A stretch of DNA of 64,000 nt, from NCBI GenBank assembly GCA_002282015.1, contig NCIJ01000002.1, positions 310,001 through 374,000 on the forward strand, read 5' to 3'. The notes below the pieces were generated by a model that had not been told where the DNA came from, ran no database searches, and worked only from the letters and a program-made list of their open reading frames with translations. The stretch is from Sulfuricurvum sp. 17-40-25 (lineage in GTDB: Bacteria; Campylobacterota; Campylobacteria; Campylobacterales; Sulfurimonadaceae). The translations under genes and the position numbers were made by a program. Positions 791 to 46,445 of the stretch are shown one piece after another (within the stretch, counting starts at the first letter, position 1; the number at the start of each line of letters is the position of its first letter).

Positions 791-955
791 CTTAGTCCCT
801 AAAATATGTAATCAATATTACTTTGTATAATACCACATATTGTAATTAATCTTGATAGAGTAAACTTACCCTAGTTACTCTTTTACGTTATTCCTAAACA
901 AGGAAATAACGAAATATTGCCCATATTATTGATGAATCATAGTATAATCATTGGT

Positions 956-1270
956 ATGAAACCGACAAAAGAACATATCTTAAAGTACCTTTGCGAACTA
1001 AAATCTGAGCTGAGAGAAGCTGGCATTACTCAGTTAGGATTATTTGGAAGCTACGCACGTGGTGATCAAACCCTCTACAGCGATATAGACATAGCCATTA
1101 AAAAAGAAGAAGACTACCTGAAACATCGCAATGCCTATGCCTATTTCGAAGACGTAGCAAAAATCAAACACCTATTATTTGAAAAATTTCGTCGCAGCAG
1201 TGATGTATTTGATTTGGATAGCAGCTCCAGCATGAAAGACTCTATTATCAGGGATATCATCTATGTATAG
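956..1270 (+). CDS. MNT-domain nucleotidyltransferase, probable antitoxin of HepT
   Basis: A 104-residue minimal nucleotidyltransferase. The Pol-beta-type signature is visible as GSYARGDQTLYSDIDI (Gly31-Ser32 and the metal-binding pair Asp43/Asp45). In the characterised MntA/HepT systems the MNT protein neutralises the HepT toxin by AMPylating its tyrosine. The downstream HepT gene overlaps by 8 nt, so the pair is translationally coupled. An in-frame TTG at 917 would add 13 residues, but ATG at 956 starts just before the conserved fold and is preferred. Ribosome site is weak for either start. Part of an accessory patch that may have moved as a unit (see the 20-mer at 1615). Confidence 0.85.
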   Translation: MKPTKEHILKYLCELKSELREAGITQLGLFGSYARGDQTLYSDIDIAIKKEEDYLKHRNAYAYFEDVAKIKHLLFEKFRRSSDVFDLDSSSSMKDSIIRDIIYV

Positions 1271-1622
1271 CCAAAGAGCGTTAGAACGTATTCAAGTGAT
1301 TGCCAAAAAAATTGGTTTTATTGAAAATATTATCCGCGCTCGCGGTTCTATCATCAATGCACTCGAAGATGAGGAAAACTCACGTGCCTCTATTATGATG
1401 CATCTGACCTCCATTGCCGAGCAATTTGATAAACTATTGCACGCAGGTGAACTTGAAATACTCACAAACTTTGAGAAACAAGATATCAAAGGAAGCTATG
1501 AGCTTCGTAATTTCATCGCGCATGACTATGAAGGAATTGATCTTTATATTGTTGAAAATGTTATCGAAGAACGGTTACCTATCATAGCCCAAGCAGTCAA
1601 AAAACTACTGGACGAAAAGTAG
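1263..1622 (+). CDS. HepT-like ribonuclease toxin (DUF86)
   Basis: A 119-residue all-helical protein with the HepT signature R-x4-H-x-Y, seen as RNFIAHDY (Arg82, His87, Tyr89). In known systems this motif forms the RNase active site and the Tyr is the residue modified by the MNT partner. It follows the MNT gene with an 8-nt overlap, the usual order for this type VII toxin-antitoxin pair. Its TAG stop codon lies inside the 20-mer that marks the junction with a broken relE-like gene on the other strand. Length and motif are complete, so the toxin is probably functional. Confidence 0.88.
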   Translation: MYSQRALERIQVIAKKIGFIENIIRARGSIINALEDEENSRASIMMHLTSIAEQFDKLLHAGELEILTNFEKQDIKGSYELRNFIAHDYEGIDLYIVENVIEERLPIIAQAVKKLLDEK

Positions 1623-1762
1623 CCTGTCCCCTTTATCTTTTTGATATTAGAAACGTCAGGGAAATTTTTGAGGGAAATGATTTTTTCGTGAAGTTTACTT
1701 TTTAAAGGTTCGTTTATTTTTTGAAAATCTTTGATCGCGCTTTTGCGTATCTCAATGAGCAT
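1544..1762 (-). pseudogene. RelE/ParE-like toxin fragment, C-terminal half replaced
   Basis: The first ~45 residues (start MLIEIRKSAIKDFQKI, ending SNIKKIKG) look like the N-terminal half of a RelE/ParE-superfamily toxin, normally about 85-95 residues. From the Lys-Gly onward the frame runs through the 20-nt junction repeat and then antisense through the 3' end of hepT, giving a meaningless tail. The missing half, which should carry the arginine and tyrosine residues of the active site, is not found in the 165 nt beyond the MNT gene. Its start overlaps the stop of the preceding antitoxin gene by 11 nt, a normal operon layout. Read as a toxin gene cut when the MNT/HepT block arrived; inactive. 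Confidence 0.65.
1615..1634. repeat. 20-nt junction repeat, copy 1
   Basis: The sequence AAAAGTAGCCTGTCCCCTTT occurs here and again, identically, at 46170-46189. Here it contains the hepT stop codon and marks the point where the relE-like toxin on the minus strand stops looking like its family. Its reverse complement resembles the ACAGGCTAC-type REP sequences I recall beside REP-associated tyrosine transposases; that resemblance is from memory and no such transposase is in the window. Confidence 0.8.
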
Positions 1763-1940
1763 CTTTTAAATAGTCCTCAAAAGGAATACTTTTTTCCTCG
1801 CGTGTTTTTGCTAAGAGCTTCAAATCGTCAATATCTTCTTTAGAAACAACTTCTACACCGTCTTTTTTAAAGTGATCTAACAACCACATAAACTTGTCAA
1901 ATATTTGTGGATTTTGAAAATTAAGGGTTAATGATTGCAT
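1752..1940 (-). CDS. Small RelB/Phd-type antitoxin-like protein
   Basis: A 62-residue acidic protein starting MQSLTLNF and ending with a FEDYLKDAH tail, the kind of C-terminal tail seen in antitoxins that pair with RelE toxins. The ATG at 1940 has a GGAG ribosome site about 8 nt upstream; a longer reading from 1988 has none. It precedes and overlaps the broken toxin gene, so it is probably an orphaned antitoxin. The exact family cannot be fixed by eye. Confidence 0.6.
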   Translation of the reverse strand: MQSLTLNFQNPQIFDKFMWLLDHFKKDGVEVVSKEDIDDLKLLAKTREEKSIPFEDYLKDAH

Positions 1941-1996
1941 TGCATTACTCCTACTATAAGATGAATAATTATAGCATGTATTTATCAAACAGTTTT

Positions 1997-4036: not shown

Positions 4037-6085
4037 CTACCATCGCCCCTCAAGTGTTAGAAGAAACGAGGAGTATGAGTTATCTCGATTTATTTGTGTC
4101 TCGGTAGAGGTCTTGGACGTTGTTTCGATCGTTGCATGGGTTATGTTCTTCCAATTTAACTGCACTTTAAATGTCTCATTAAGCCGTTTGTTGAGATACA
4201 TATCCAGCGTGCCATATCCCTTTTGTACTTGCGAGACTCCATTCTCATCGAGAGGATCATCGTATCCTCCCACATAGCGGTAGGCTGTCCCGTAGGTGAG
4301 TTTATACGAGGGCAATGTATGATCGATTCCGATGTTGTAGAGATAGTTACTGGTTTGCTTGATGGGTCGTTTGAACCCTGTTGCAGAATTAGTAATCGAT
4401 GAGTTTTGAATCGTGGCGTTTGCAAAAGTACCCAAGCCCTCGATATACGAGCTTAATGATTTTTTGAGTTCCAGTTCAACTCCCCATAAACTGCCCTGTC
4501 CCGAATTGTAAGGGCGCATCACATAGCGACCTCCCTCGACTACGGTCATTTTTTCGATTTTATCATCTATGTCGCGGTAAAAACCGCCCACACTGACAAT
4601 CCCTTTGTCCTCAAAAAAGTGTTCCAATCTCAGCTCATAGCTGAGTGCTTTTTCTTCGGTTAGATTTGCATTTCCCGTTAAATCCGGATGACGAATATCA
4701 TTACGATCAAAGGTACTGTCAAGACTCGTGGAGAGTTCATCCAAGCGTGGTAACTTCACCGTTTTTGCGACACTGGCTCTGAGGTTATCGTTGGGTGTCA
4801 GACGTGCTAATACATGTAAGGAGGGGGCTAGATAATCAATGTTTCCCGTAGCACCATAGTTACGTCTAATCGTCTCATACCGTAGCCCTGGGGTTACAAC
4901 AAATGACTCTCCAAAACTTATCTCGTCTTGCACATAAAAGGCACCTTTTGTTTGGTTCATCGAGATAGTATCTCCAGCTGTTGTGACGTCTGTTCCATTC
5001 ACATCACGGCGTACCTCATCGGTTTGATGCAATCCTTTTAGCTCTATACCCATTTTTATAAAATGGTTATCCTTTGCAACCGAATAACTACTTTCAGCAC
5101 CCAATACACGAAAAAGACTCTTGTCATCTTGATGACTCACGCTTGAGGTTGGAAGCAATTGAGCTGAACCGCTTTCTCCCGTGTTAGTGCTCTCATGAAA
5201 TTTGACTTTCCAATCCAACAGCTCACTGCCTGAGAGATGATGTTCTCCCTTGATTGCAGACCAAAGCATCGTCCCATCTGATCGGTCATTATTGGCAACG
5301 GTACGTGTAGTACTGGCTACATCAATATCCGTTTTACTGTTGTTTTTAGTAAGAGAACCATCGAAACTGTATTTATCTTTGGAGGATGGGGTATAGATCA
5401 GCTTCGTCGTTACCCCCAACGACTGATAACGGGTTACTATGTTACGCTGTTCGTTACTGACCCCTACTCTCAAGGTCGAAGAGGTATCTTCTTGACGGTT
5501 ATCCGATGCGTTTAGATTGACAAGATACGCCAGATTTCCCGATTTTCCCTCCCGTTGCACAAAAAGAGTTTGGCTGGGTACATCACCGTCATAGGCTCCA
5601 CCGGTTATCTTGGCCGTTGTCACCCCTTGTGCTTTTGGTTTTTTTAAAACGATATTAACAATTCCTCCCATCGACTCTGCCGTATATTCTGCCGAACCGT
5701 TGGTCATCACCTCGATACGTTCTATCATGTCCGAAGTAATTTGCTCCAATGGGTTTCCACGACGTTTTGACCCTGTAGAGGTTTCTTCACCGTCAACCAT
5801 CACCACTGTATAGCCCTTACCCGGTGAGCCTTTTTGTCCTCTTCCCTCTGGAATTGTGACACCTGGAGTGCGTTTGAGCATCTCCAGTGCATTTAGATCA
5901 CCGTATTGGGTCAACTCTGTACCGCTGATAATACGTTTGGCAATGGAGTGATCACGTCGCTCTTCTAATATGGCCGTGTTGGCTTCAACCTGTATTTTAT
6001 CAAGGGCAATAATATCCTCGGCATACATACTTGTAATACTCATGCTCGATAGTAACAGAAGGGGGATTAGAGGGCGATGTATCAA
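4037..6085 (-). CDS. TonB-dependent outer-membrane receptor
   Basis: A 682-residue protein with a signal peptide (IPLLLLSSMSITSMYA), a TonB-box-like segment after it, a plug domain (about residues 45-155, with TPGVTIPEG, VMVDGEE and ERIEVMTNGSAEY) and a beta-barrel ending in the aromatic residue Trp (TLEGRW). It would import a siderophore or other large ligand using TonB energy; the substrate cannot be read. The start is TTG at 6085, with an AGGA site 7 nt upstream; the next Met falls inside the signal peptide. The gene is single, and no ABC importer or regulator lies beside it. Confidence 0.9.
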   Translation of the reverse strand: MIHRPLIPLLLLSSMSITSMYAEDIIALDKIQVEANTAILEERRDHSIAKRIISGTELTQYGDLNALEMLKRTPGVTIPEGRGQKGSPGKGYTVVMVDGEETSTGSKRRGNPLEQITSDMIERIEVMTNGSAEYTAESMGGIVNIVLKKPKAQGVTTAKITGGAYDGDVPSQTLFVQREGKSGNLAYLVNLNASDNRQEDTSSTLRVGVSNEQRNIVTRYQSLGVTTKLIYTPSSKDKYSFDGSLTKNNSKTDIDVASTTRTVANNDRSDGTMLWSAIKGEHHLSGSELLDWKVKFHESTNTGESGSAQLLPTSSVSHQDDKSLFRVLGAESSYSVAKDNHFIKMGIELKGLHQTDEVRRDVNGTDVTTAGDTISMNQTKGAFYVQDEISFGESFVVTPGLRYETIRRNYGATGNIDYLAPSLHVLARLTPNDNLRASVAKTVKLPRLDELSTSLDSTFDRNDIRHPDLTGNANLTEEKALSYELRLEHFFEDKGIVSVGGFYRDIDDKIEKMTVVEGGRYVMRPYNSGQGSLWGVELELKKSLSSYIEGLGTFANATIQNSSITNSATGFKRPIKQTSNYLYNIGIDHTLPSYKLTYGTAYRYVGGYDDPLDENGVSQVQKGYGTLDMYLNKRLNETFKVQLNWKNITHATIETTSKTSTETQINRDNSYSSFLLTLEGRW

Positions 6086-31484: not shown

Positions 31485-32258
31485 ATGGATATATGGATTA
31501 AAATCGCCATCGTAATTGTATTTTGCCTACTTGTGTACCGAGAAATCTTAAAATCAGCAGCCCTAAGTCACACCAGTATATCAACCTCTACAGCAAAAAA
31601 CAAAGCTGGAATTATGAGCTTTATCCTAGTGGGAGCGTGTGTTGGTTTATTTGTCTATGTCGGACTTTCCATTACCAATATCCAAACCAGAGATTTAAAA
31701 CCTTATCGCTTACCAAACTCACCTGAATTCGTTAGTATTTTTGATAAAGGGGTTATTGAATTAAACGGTCACTACATCAAAACAAATCTTGCTAAACCAG
31801 GAGAGCTGTCAGGGTTGGCAAGTAATTTAACCCAAAAATGTCATGGCAATAATGCATGTGAAATCAATACACTCTTTGATTATGTCACACACATACCCTA
31901 TCGGACAGACCAAACCAGCCGCAGTCCAAAACAAGTATTGCAAACCAACTGGGGAGATTGCGATGATAAATCAAATTTGTTTGCTTCATTGCTTAACGAA
32001 AGAGGCTTTGACTACCGATTTGTGTATGTACCTCACCATGTATTTGTGGTCGTACAGGTTGAAGATGAAAGCTTACTACCCTTATTAAGTGCCAATCTGA
32101 CTATTGATGGGAAAAAGTACTATTACGCCGAGACAACGGCTAAAGGTTCACGTATAGGTGAGTTTAACGGTCAGTTCCCCTATACATTTGATGGTATCTA
32201 CGATATTAAAAATGATAAAGCTGTTGATATGAACAACGTTTCTTTTAGGATGATGTAA
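31485..32258 (+). CDS. Membrane-bound transglutaminase-like (papain-fold) protein
   Basis: A 257-residue protein with two N-terminal membrane segments (about residues 4-22 and 43-64) and a transglutaminase-like domain. The likely catalytic triad is Cys in NWGDCDDKSNL, His in VPHHVFVVVQV and an acid in YYAETTA. Substrate unknown; such domains act as peptidases or amidases. Its last 26 codons are copied again beyond the arfB gene at 32697-32776, where the encoded peptide differs slightly. Confidence 0.72.
   Translation: MDIWIKIAIVIVFCLLVYREILKSAALSHTSISTSTAKNKAGIMSFILVGACVGLFVYVGLSITNIQTRDLKPYRLPNSPEFVSIFDKGVIELNGHYIKTNLAKPGELSGLASNLTQKCHGNNACEINTLFDYVTHIPYRTDQTSRSPKQVLQTNWGDCDDKSNLFASLLNERGFDYRFVYVPHHVFVVVQVEDESLLPLLSANLTIDGKKYYYAETTAKGSRIGEFNGQFPYTFDGIYDIKNDKAVDMNNVSFRMM
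32178..32257. repeat. 3' end of the transglutaminase-like gene (direct repeat, left copy)
   Basis: This 80-nt segment matches 32697-32776 with about five substitutions and no gap. Here it encodes the true C-terminus, PYTFDGIYDIKNDKAVDMNN and six more residues. The two copies bracket the arfB gene. Confidence 0.88.
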
Positions 32259-32267
32259 ACAGGTTTC

Positions 32268-32690
32268 TTAACCTTCCCCTTTATTGACTTTCCCCCGCAT
32301 CTTCTTAATATTCCCGTGCTTCGTCTTGCTGTCCATCCGCCGTTTCTGCGAGTTTCTCGTCGGTTTGGTCGCTGTGCGTTTTTTCTGGGTCACCATGACA
32401 CTTTTGATCAGTTCTTTAAGCCGCTGTAACGCCGATTCTTTGTTCTCTTCTTGACTTCGCGATTCTTGGGATTTGATGTTTACGATTCCATCTTTGGTAA
32501 TCCGGTGATCCGTGAGAGCTAATAGCCGTTCTTTGTAGAGTTCGGGAAGTGTCGAGGTGTTGATGTCAAAGCGCAGGTGGATCGCAGTTGAGACTTTGTT
32601 GACGTTTTGCCCCCCTGCTCCTTGGGAGCGGATGGCAGTGATCTCGATCTCTGAATCAGGAATAGATACTGTGTGTGAAATTTGTAGCAT
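32268..32690 (-). CDS. arfB: Alternative ribosome-rescue factor ArfB (YaeJ)
   Basis: A 140-residue codon-independent peptidyl-tRNA hydrolase that frees stalled ribosomes. The catalytic GGQ is at residues 26-28 (SQGAGGQNVNKVSTA), and the long basic tail (many Lys/Arg after residue 100) is the part that enters the empty mRNA channel. It is convergent with both neighbours in effect: it sits opposite to the transglutaminase-like gene and between two copies of that gene's 3' end, so its arrival here appears to be secondary. Confidence 0.93.
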   Translation of the reverse strand: MLQISHTVSIPDSEIEITAIRSQGAGGQNVNKVSTAIHLRFDINTSTLPELYKERLLALTDHRITKDGIVNIKSQESRSQEENKESALQRLKELIKSVMVTQKKRTATKPTRNSQKRRMDSKTKHGNIKKMRGKVNKGEG

Positions 32691-32696
32691 TTTTTA

Positions 32697-32776
32697 CCCT
32701 ATGTATTTGAAGGCATCTACGATATTAAAAATAATAAAGCTGTTGATATGAACAACGTTTCTTTTAGGATGATGTA
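32697..32776. repeat. Orphan copy of the transglutaminase-like gene 3' end (right copy)
   Basis: Same orientation as the left copy at 32178-32257. It still reads PYVFEGIYDIKNNKAVDMNN and six more residues, then TAG. Two of the five changes alter residues conservatively, which suggests a diverged homologous allele more than a plain recent duplication. The last codons of the minus-strand mscS gene extend 13 nt into it. Confidence 0.88.
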
Positions 32777-44283: not shown

Positions 44284-44679
44284 TTATCTGCAATTATAAT
44301 CGTCATTACGACGATTATAACGATTATCACGGTTGTGATGCTTATGATGACGCGTATAGACTACTCGCGGTGCTTGTTGTACATAAACCGTTTGTGGCTG
44401 TACATAGTACACTCTCTGAGGTTCAACATACGTCACATAACGTCGTGGCGTGTATACACGATTGTCATAATCCTCATCATAGCTTCTGTAGTTACTATTA
44501 CTACCTATCATCGTACCGATAACCGCACCGCCAATCGTTGCCGCAGTGTTACCATCACCTCTACCGAACTGATGCCCGATCACTCCACCCATAGTTCCAC
44601 CAATTATCCCGCCAATAACATCATTAGCCACAACCACTGATGAAAATGTCAATGCCAACACCAATAGAATCTTTTTCAT
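44284..44679 (-). CDS. Glycine-zipper 2TM-like surface protein
   Basis: About 131 residues: signal peptide (KKILLVLALTFSSVVVA), then a glycine-zipper segment (GGIIGGTMGGVIGHQFGRG, about residues 22-55), then a Tyr/Arg/Val-rich tail ending in Cys-Arg. Proteins of this kind insert in or line the outer membrane; role unknown. ATG at 44679 has AAGGA 8 nt upstream; the ATG at 44688 overlaps that site. Its 5' end and upstream region are duplicated beyond the AbiE genes. Confidence 0.75.
   Translation of the reverse strand: MKKILLVLALTFSSVVVANDVIGGIIGGTMGGVIGHQFGRGDGNTAATIGGAVIGTMIGSNSNYRSYDEDYDNRVYTPRRYVTYVEPQRVYYVQPQTVYVQQAPRVVYTRHHKHHNRDNRYNRRNDDYNCR
44294..44320. terminator. 11-bp perfect inverted repeat at a convergent gene end
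   Basis: TTATAATCGTC and GACGATTATAA pair perfectly around ATTAC. It lies inside the last codons of the glycine-zipper gene and 20 nt past the mscS stop, so it could end the mscS transcript. There is no T-run on either side, so a protein-binding or mRNA-end stabilising role is as likely. Confidence 0.35.
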
Positions 44680-44742
44680 GGTATCCATCCTTTTAAAAAC
44701 AAGTTATGCAAGTATCGGATGTGAATGTGGAGTAATTGTGAA
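44637..44742. repeat. Direct repeat flanking the AbiE pair, left copy (106 nt)
   Basis: Covers the first codons and upstream region of the glycine-zipper gene. It matches 46193-46292 perfectly except for 6 extra bases here (one copy of a CAACAC-like unit). The stretch from the 6-nt gap to the end is identical over more than 75 nt. Confidence 0.95.
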
Positions 44743-44838: not shown

Positions 44839-45447
44839 ATGACAACAGCAGAAATCACACAGTTTTTTCATATTGCTAATAGCACGCTCAGTGATTGGGA
44901 ATCCAATCCAAAACGTCAAAAGCTTTTTATCCTCCTCCGTACTATTAGCCTTGATGAAGCTGAAACCTATTTACAACCTAAAAATACACCATCAAAGTTT
45001 AGCCCTAAAACCCGTTTCATCAAACTTCGGAAAGAGTGGTTTACGATTGATCTACTATGGTCACGTCAAGATCATTCACTTATAGAGATTAATAGCCTCA
45101 TTTGGATTTATCTCTCTACACCAAATCAAGAGGATACTCAAACACTGATCCGTCTATTTGGAATCGAACGAGTCCGTTCAATCTTGATGAAACTGGAAGA
45201 TACCATGCCAATTGAAGATTATAATGAAGCTTCAGAACAGATTGAATTTTCCATAGACCCTGAAACCTATTTTGAAGTTCATCCATTACCTTCACTAGAA
45301 GAACTTCTACGCCATCCTAAAAAACGTTACATTACCTATCTGAGCAAACAATACAGTGCCGATGAGTTGGTTAAAATGGCTAAAGAAAGAAAAGTACCGT
45401 TTAACACCCTCTTCCAAATTAAAAAGATGACAGGGCTTAGCGTATGA
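44839..45447 (+). CDS. Probable AbiEi-like antitoxin / DNA-binding protein
   Basis: A 202-residue protein. Residues 3-30 (TAEITQFFHIANSTLSDWE) look like a helix-turn-helix; the rest has no motif I know. It precedes an AbiEii-type toxin gene, overlapping it by 4 nt, and its promoter carries an inverted repeat, so it is likely the antitoxin and repressor. It does not look like the canonical AbiEi with a winged-helix and long C-domain, so the name rests on position. Strong ribosome site. Confidence 0.6.
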   Translation: MTTAEITQFFHIANSTLSDWESNPKRQKLFILLRTISLDEAETYLQPKNTPSKFSPKTRFIKLRKEWFTIDLLWSRQDHSLIEINSLIWIYLSTPNQEDTQTLIRLFGIERVRSILMKLEDTMPIEDYNEASEQIEFSIDPETYFEVHPLPSLEELLRHPKKRYITYLSKQYSADELVKMAKERKVPFNTLFQIKKMTGLSV

Positions 45448-46154
45448 CCGAAGCAATCAAACAGATTCTACCAATCATCCAAAATCACGAGATTTTCAAA
45501 AAGCATGATTTTAGACTGGTTGGTGGAACCGCTCTTTCCTATCATATCAATCACCGTATATCTGAAGATTTAGACTTTTGTTTAACTCAGGAGCTACCAT
45601 TAGATGACATTCAAAAATTCATAGAATTTTGTATCGAGAAATTTGACATGAGTAATATCGACTATATCGAACCCTCACAGGCAATCAAAGAAGATTTTTT
45701 ACTTGCTGGTGACAATGTCGAATACTATCTCCAAACATGGATAGTTAACGGTATAAAAATTCAATTTTTCGATGGTGGTGGTAATACTGGCACCAAGGAA
45801 TTTCTTTCTACTGATATTTATACAACCATCGGAAATATCAAAATATCTTCACTTGATACAATCTTTAAGATGAAATCTCTAATGTTCTACAAACGAACCA
45901 AATCACGAGACCTCTACGATATGCTCCAATTCTACGAACTGAATAATGACCGATTTACACCAGAAGCAACCAAGGCGTTAATTATGCAACATGAGCCGCT
46001 TTATTACACGGAAGAATATTTCCAAACGATGTGGCTAGAGAGTTTTAAAACTAAAAAATATTTGGCGGAACGCGATGAGGGGTTGGCGGGATTAGTAGGT
46101 GAACTTCAAACATTTGAGGTGATGCGCATGAAGTTGGTAAAACTTTTTCAATAA
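45444..46154 (+). CDS. AbiEii/AbiGii-type nucleotidyltransferase toxin
   Basis: A 236-residue nucleotidyltransferase-fold protein with VGGTALSYHINHRISEDLDF: Gly27-Gly28 and the metal-binding Asp42/Asp44. Members of this family block growth by adding nucleotides to tRNA ends and defend against phage when freed from the antitoxin. Overlaps the upstream gene by 4 nt. The gene is complete. The whole two-gene unit lies between copies of a neighbouring gene's start. Confidence 0.85.
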   Translation: MTEAIKQILPIIQNHEIFKKHDFRLVGGTALSYHINHRISEDLDFCLTQELPLDDIQKFIEFCIEKFDMSNIDYIEPSQAIKEDFLLAGDNVEYYLQTWIVNGIKIQFFDGGGNTGTKEFLSTDIYTTIGNIKISSLDTIFKMKSLMFYKRTKSRDLYDMLQFYELNNDRFTPEATKALIMQHEPLYYTEEYFQTMWLESFKTKKYLAERDEGLAGLVGELQTFEVMRMKLVKLFQ

Positions 46155-46169
46155 ACTTTTTTATTGTAT

Positions 46170-46189
46170 AAAAGTAGCCTGTCCCCTTT
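46170..46189. repeat. 20-nt junction repeat, copy 2
   Basis: Identical to 1615-1634. It lies 15 nt after the AbiEii stop and 3 nt before the right-hand copy of the duplicated glycine-zipper segment, that is, at the exact edge of the inserted DNA. Confidence 0.85.
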
Positions 46190-46192
46190 TTT

Positions 46193-46292
46193 CTGATGAA
46201 AATGTCAATGCCAATAGAATCTTTTTCATGGTATCCATCCTTTTAAAAACAAGTTATGCAAGTATCGGATGTGAATGTGGAGTAATTGTGAA
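46193..46292. repeat. Direct repeat flanking the AbiE pair, right copy (100 nt)
   Basis: Carries the first 13-14 codons of the glycine-zipper gene with its ribosome site and upstream region, lacking 6 nt relative to 44637-44742. On the minus strand it starts MKKILLALTFSS and then runs into the junction repeat, so it makes no protein. The DNA to its right, leading to the tRNA gene, is probably the original upstream flank. Confidence 0.95.
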
Positions 46293-46369: not shown

Positions 46370-46445
46370 TGGTGGGTCAAGCAGGATTTGAACCTGCGAC
46401 AACTCCGTTATGAGCGGAGGGCTCTAACCACTGAACTATTGACCC
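46370..46445 (-). tRNA. tRNA with CAU anticodon (Met or Ile2)
   Basis: A complete 76-nt cloverleaf on the minus strand: acceptor GGGTCAA/TTGACCC, anticodon stem CTCCG/CGGAG around loop CTCATAA, T arm GCAGG-TTCAAAT-CCTGC, discriminator A and an encoded CCA end. The CAU anticodon fits elongator Met or lysidine-modified Ile; I cannot decide by eye. Lies 78 nt past the AbiE right repeat and just downstream of rodA. Confidence 0.93.

Follow-up and report, generated by a model that had tools for sequence, protein, structure and literature searches.

The window, a stretch of 64,000 nucleotides from Sulfuricurvum sp. 17-40-25 that belongs to a 2.3-Mb assembly (99.99% complete), carries two unrelated toxin-antitoxin (TA) modules that share a 20-mer at their downstream edge (Table 1). 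Module 1 pairs an MNT-type antitoxin gene with hepT, whose stop codon TAG (1620-1622) falls within copy 1 of the 20-mer; on the opposite strand, a relE/parE-like gene (the family match is weak) is cut by this copy after about 45 codons, and its C-terminal half was not found in the window. The small ORF upstream of the remnant gave no match in a Pfam search and is probably the remnant's antitoxin partner, judging from position and size. In module 2, the AbiEii toxin gene is preceded by an ORF whose product by itself matches nothing in Pfam or NCBIfam; from its position we presume it to be AbiEi, and it may represent an undescribed AbiEii partner. Copy 2 of the 20-mer starts 15 bp past the AbiEii stop codon, and the 5' end and promoter of the resident glycine-zipper gene are duplicated around the module, the two repeat copies being identical over 100 bases apart from a 6-bp gap by which the first is longer. 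The AbiE insert spans about 1.45 kb and has no integrase. A previous sequence-only reading, which placed the 20-mer at the ends of both modules with host sequence resuming within a few bases, thus describes the two sites well: the cut relE-like gene comes after copy 1, and after copy 2 the 5' end of the neighbouring gene appears again.

Table 1. Features of the two TA modules and of their immediate surroundings in the window.
Feature	Position	Strand	Basis
MNT-type nucleotidyltransferase antitoxin gene, module 1 cargo	917..1270	+	Pfam NTP_transf_2 1.6e-9
hepT HEPN toxin gene, module 1 cargo	1263..1622	+	Pfam HepT-like 8.2e-9 (L207:5664-6023, same gene); sequence
Solitary TIR copy 1, AAAAGTAGCCTGTCCCCTTT, outer end on CCCC side	1615..1634	+	Sequence search
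Remnant of resident relE/parE-like toxin gene	1628..1762	-	Translation MLIEIRKSAIKDFQKINEPLKSKLHEKIISLKNFPDVSNIKK; weak Pfam ParE_toxin E=0.046
Small ORF upstream of relE remnant	1752..1988	-	Position and size
Resident glycine-zipper protein gene	44284..44688	-	ORF; NCBIfam PRK11280 6.4e-8, below cut-off
Direct repeat copy 1, left edge of module 2, intact 5' end of resident gene	44637..44742	+	
Presumed AbiEi-type antitoxin gene, module 2 cargo	44839..45447	+	Operon with AbiEii
AbiEii nucleotidyltransferase toxin gene, module 2 cargo	45444..46154	+	Pfam AbiEii 1e-11 (L208:5345-6055, same gene)
Solitary TIR copy 2, AAAAGTAGCCTGTCCCCTTT, right end of module 2	46170..46189	+	Sequence search
Direct repeat copy 2, starting where TIR T-run ends	46193..46292	+	100 bases identical to copy 1
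tRNA-Met beside AbiE insertion site, context not module	46370..46445	-	ARAGORN

Both copies of the 20-mer are exact, and the window holds no further match at up to three mismatches. Base composition predicts 1.5e-7 copies and 100 shuffles of the window gave none, so the two-copy occurrence is not due to chance, in line with the sequence-only reading, which had judged chance identity very unlikely. Exact repeats of at least 20 bases form three groups only in the window: the 20-mer, the direct repeat on either side of the AbiE module and a further, unrelated pair at about 32.2/32.7 kb. In the whole genome, the core GTAGCCTGTCCCC occurs four times with nothing extra when one mismatch is allowed, and searching with CCTGWCCCCNTTT adds a single variant, which forms the left arm in a short inverted pair adjacent to one of these copies. 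What these copies have in common is just 20-25 bp, which rules out membership of a long dispersed repeat, an option that would have spoken against a mobile module. Each of the four lies next to a TA module, which is MNT/HepT in three cases and AbiE in one. The genome has eight HepT loci and three of them carry the motif; the rough chance of three of four motif copies lying beside such loci is 2e-7. Of the two copies outside the window, one sits by a HepT/MNT pair beside ssrA (L001/L206) and the other by an MNT/HepT pair after tRNA-Phe (L004/L209), where the motif runs into an FtsK/SpoIIIE-type gene just before its Walker A motif and truncates it. At this last locus (G000:C39:44.0-46.1 kb) the 3' end of tRNA-Phe recurs about 2 kb downstream and encloses the MNT/HepT pair and the truncated FtsK-type gene, probably as an island remnant. 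For the right-hand neighbours of the hepT and ssrA-side copies, no genus relative was found at the threshold used, and a search of viral contigs returned no copy of the motif.

Reversed, the motif reads GGGGACAGGCTAC (also written AAAGGGGACAGGCTACTTTT) and fits the consensus GGGGWSAS, with GGGGACAG as the core in the reverse complement of every copy. This consensus is shared by the terminal inverted repeats (TIRs) flanking RAYT-like genes in what were named TIRtrons or TIRYTs (Di Nocera et al. 2013, PMC3733652), most of which have been placed in TnpAREP subclass 2.1, that is RAYT group 1 (Quentin et al. 2018, PMC6006769). The subclass is prevalent in epsilon-, beta- and deltaproteobacteria, and movement of subclass 2 transposase genes has yet to be demonstrated (PMC6006769). 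In one genus genome only (G012, L214), inverted motif copies at 5264 and 5992 flank a transposase gene that matches NF047646 (REP-associated tyrosine transposase; 81.3 bits against a cut-off of 80) as well as PF01797 and lies on the GTAG side, the same inner side as the TA modules. A sister TIR, ATACCTGACCCCTATTT, accompanies other Y1 genes of the genus, and its solitary copies also have Fic, RelBE and AbiEi-type genes on their inner side. A classical RAYT REP combines GTAG with a stable palindromic hairpin and high copy number, and neither the hairpin nor the copy number applies to a motif with four copies and no self-complementary stem within its 20 bases. Hence, of the earlier suggestion that the 20-mer is a RAYT-type REP, the relation to RAYTs stands by virtue of the GGGGWSAS core, while the hairpin REP gives way to a TIR of TIRYT type. 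No PF01797 or Y1 transposase was found in the 99.99% complete genome, nor was an inverted partner with up to three mismatches within 2.5 kb of the four TA modules. A TA element with paired TIRs is therefore ruled out and the copies are solitary ends rather than TIRtrons; a left end common to the TA-carrying insertions was not found either.

In the genus at large, a 13-mer occurs in 19 of 41 genomes, with about 40 matches as against four to five for a reversed-sequence control, and the 19-mer AAAGTAGCCTGTCCCCTTT in 14 of the 41, compared to 5 of 187 genomes from the other 17 genera and zero for the control. When genes next to the motif were called by a simple ORF picker and then assigned by Pfam, the GTAG-side gene belonged to a TA system at about 17 of 36 usable sites, a count that is approximate as it takes in a module 547 bp off (L226) and an HTH-only site that is TA by homology (L235). 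On the CCCC side this applied to one or two of 34 sites, one with ParE and the second being the window's own truncated relE at the hepT site, and ten further small ORFs on that side had no TA match. The resulting side bias has a Fisher p of 1.3e-5, or 8e-5 when the window relE is counted. GTAG-side families comprise HepT/NTP_transf, AbiEii, ParE, PhdYeFM with YoeB or ParE-like, BrnT, Fic with HTH, DUF4160 with DUF2442 and a weak Unstab_antitox, so that recognised toxin and antitoxin families (type II, IV and VII cargo) lie beside the motif. TA operons face either way relative to the motif, some modules pointing away from it, and the constant is therefore position, not transcription. On the left of roughly half of the genus sites no TA gene was recognised; other cargo on this side includes an arfB/RF-1-like gene (L223) and GNAT-like and unknown ORFs. 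Same-orientation tandem copies of the motif are present in L236 and L238; in these two loci as well as in L222 and L230, a non-coding block of 35-180 bp (GAAATGTGGGGTGAGGGAAGGGGA...) stands ahead of the motif and may be a miniature element, non-autonomous and of the same family.

Outside the genus the picture is different. The motif is common in other phyla, where it often forms inverted pairs and mostly lies in ordinary intergenic space; Y1_Tnp is the commonest family among 82 left neighbours (four cases) and is not among the families listed for 83 right neighbours, and no TA family is among the 25 families listed first. With no TA enrichment visible there, the motif outside the genus is an ordinary dispersed TIR and the TA link is a property of the genus, not of the motif everywhere. 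The sequence-only reading had proposed to list the genes near each copy in the genome and its relatives, and had named copies mostly in ordinary intergenic space as an outcome against mobility: this describes the other phyla yet not the genus, in which TA genes are enriched and on one side only.

The right boundary of the modules is shared as well. In pairwise site comparisons across genomes, common blocks stop at +17 to +23 from the G of GTAG, and homology between related cassettes ends with the T-run after the motif. The clearest case is a 1,090-bp Fic-HTH cassette that is 93% identical between G002 and G016 with both flanks unrelated; a third copy (G021) keeps antitoxin and motif with a different gene in place of the toxin. 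As to the loci L211, L216 and L235, the HTH antitoxin and the motif are constant and the toxin-side gene in L235 differs from the Fic gene of the other two: the toxin seems to have been exchanged while the block of antitoxin and TIR stayed the same. That motif-proximal sequence is conserved and distal sequence variable is as expected for one fixed and one variable end. Right-hand junctions sit inside genes, as is evident from the truncated relE, the truncated FtsK-type ATPase and the duplicated gene ends. Direct repeats starting at +19 to +21 were seen at 4 of 41 genus sites versus 1 of 328 control positions (p=6e-4), and outside the genus there was no such excess (2/139 vs 14/1248 in the control). 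The repeats include 117 bp from the 3' end of an FtsX/MacB-type gene (L210), 100 bp from the 5' end of a gene (L229) and 73 bp inside another repeat (L228). Uninserted sites, which the earlier reading had asked for, do exist: 36 of 41 genus genomes have the FtsX gene, and of the 28 orthologues that were inspected not one is followed by the motif within 1.4 kb. In L210 (G001), the repeat copies (-657..-540 and +20..+137 around the motif) are 78% alike over their first 67 bases and 96% over the last 50, above any orthologue there, a mosaic that a simple target duplication does not account for and that we read, as an incomplete explanation, as later recombination between species. Copies in L210 and L229 differ by 15-20%, so not all duplications are simple and recent.

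Two further loci are worth describing here. At the AbiE-site orthologue of G033 (L240:4806-5872), there is no AbiE; in its place are relBE, a variant motif (GTAGCCTGTCGC) and a weakly HepT-like ORF, so this locus looks like a repeated target. In G023 and G027, synteny at the AbiE site differs. Within the window, an arfB/RF-1-like ORF (32268-32690, minus strand) is flanked at 32175-32776 by an 83-bp direct repeat (93%) that is the 3' end of the upstream transglutaminase-like gene, and no TIR is present. The same locus in G017 (L219) has a 94%-identical arfB-like gene in an insert that does end in the motif, and after the motif comes a short remnant of the transglutaminase-like gene's 3' end.

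Together, these findings lead us to favour, with some reserve, a model in which the 20-mer is a solitary TIR that forms the fixed, CCCC-side outer end of non-autonomous, TA-carrying insertions in this genus, moved by a transposase acting in trans. There is good support for the TIR as the fixed end of inserted units. So the previous idea of an end of a non-autonomous mobile module gains from the one-sided TA enrichment and from the uninserted orthologous sites, whereas its companion, the 20-mer as an insertion point, does not agree with junctions and duplications indicating that the 20-mer arrived with the module. Mechanistically, the TA module would occupy the place of the transposase gene inside the insertion, and a TIRYT transposase (an HUH single-strand nuclease absent here but present in relatives) may cut single-stranded DNA at the TIR, the cut end then being joined to a target, often within a gene. 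For the far end, which lacks a TIR, resolution might come about through copying or annealing into the target, or through homologous recombination; this would yield variable left ends and, in several cases, a duplication of 70-117 bp that keeps the target gene intact. IS200/IS605 enzymes are not known to make a target duplication; the duplications would thus need a second process, and known IS200/IS605 chemistry leaves their length unaccounted for. Inserts with TA genes would be retained through addiction, and we propose that TA cargo is over-represented because it resists loss. More tentatively, and on balance doubtful to us, a TIRYT/RAYT-group-1 transposase may move or capture neighbouring genes from a single TIR by a one-ended single-stranded DNA mechanism. 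If true, TA and other small modules could spread without an integrase of their own, and this would be the first cargo-carrying function for the RAYT family.

Among the alternatives, the modules might be cargo of genomic islands that use tRNA or tmRNA sites, the TIR hitch-hiking along, with duplicated gene ends as integrase attachment duplications or traces of interspecies recombination. This option has to be taken seriously, as three of the four copies lie close to tRNA-Met, tRNA-Phe or ssrA; furthermore, in L004 the tRNA-Phe end recurs 2 kb downstream, the regenerated ends of genes look like att sites of integrases, the FtsX repeat shows a mosaic structure and divergence at the level of species, and the 83-bp repeat around the arfB-like gene does without any TIR. 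Against it, the AbiE insert lacks an integrase, and the repeats leave out the tRNA genes and, in three or four target genes unrelated to each other, begin where the TIR ends, so we regard islands as an unlikely source overall. Less probable still is a scenario in which solitary, REP-like TIRs came first and TA modules inserted preferentially beside them, much as some insertion sequences target REPs. The intergenic, often paired motif copies of other phyla, the genus sites without a TA module and the HepT module at L001/L206, which lies beside a short inverted TIR pair and not flush with the TIR, would fit such targeting; however, direct repeats enclose TA module and TIR as a single unit, homologous modules share their TIR-side end across genomes and diverge beyond, TA genes keep to one side and none of the 28 FtsX orthologues has a TIR at the site. 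It is very improbable that the motif is just an ordinary intergenic repeat of low copy number, or a terminator, located downstream of TA genes by coincidence, since the T-run and weak local hairpin present at each site are outweighed by the motif's want of a stem of its own, by TA modules pointing away from it, by enrichment and polarity far from chance and by the in-gene junctions.

Chromosomal TA pairs are thought to spread horizontally, many of them without visible transfer machinery, and a fixed directional end common to unrelated TA families would be a handle on how such pairs move. Solitary TIRs at their edges, as our data suggest, may be an undescribed way for them to spread. Integron gene cassettes are alike in being compact TA cassettes with a recurring sequence on one side and, as in L236 and L238, some same-orientation arrays; in contrast to these, the recurring sequence here does not appear to be attC-like (the conserved block GTAGCCTGTCCCC has no GTTRRRY, the attC core) and insertions are scattered over the chromosome and within genes. 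One-ended transposition of IS91/ISCR elements and transfer of Agrobacterium T-DNA likewise combine an HUH-type nuclease with one precise and one variable end, but these systems are larger, have identified initiation sites and do not involve TIRYTs. REPs and REPINs mobilised by RAYTs share the GTAG tetranucleotide and non-autonomous copies beside RAYT-family genes, whereas our motif has no palindromic hairpin, occurs four times in a genome and not hundreds of times, and delimits genes where REPs spread as short repeats. Tn3-derived inverted-repeat miniature elements (TIMEs), said to generate mosaic non-autonomous transposons (PMC4133298), resemble it as short non-autonomous transposon ends and differ in belonging to the Tn3 family with its other chemistry. 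Closest are the TIRtrons/TIRYTs (PMC3733652, PMC6006769) with their GGGGWSAS inverted repeats, their HUH transposase with NHFH and Y-I-E-x-N motifs, their frequency in epsilonproteobacteria and their low-copy solitary or paired genomic TIRs; the difference is that the TIRs here are single and unpaired, border TA modules on one side and occur in a genome without the transposase. As we found no link between TIRYT TIRs and TA genes in the open-access literature, these are, within that literature, TIRs of a known kind in a new role, and whether TIRYT ends bound gene cargo can be tested in vitro.
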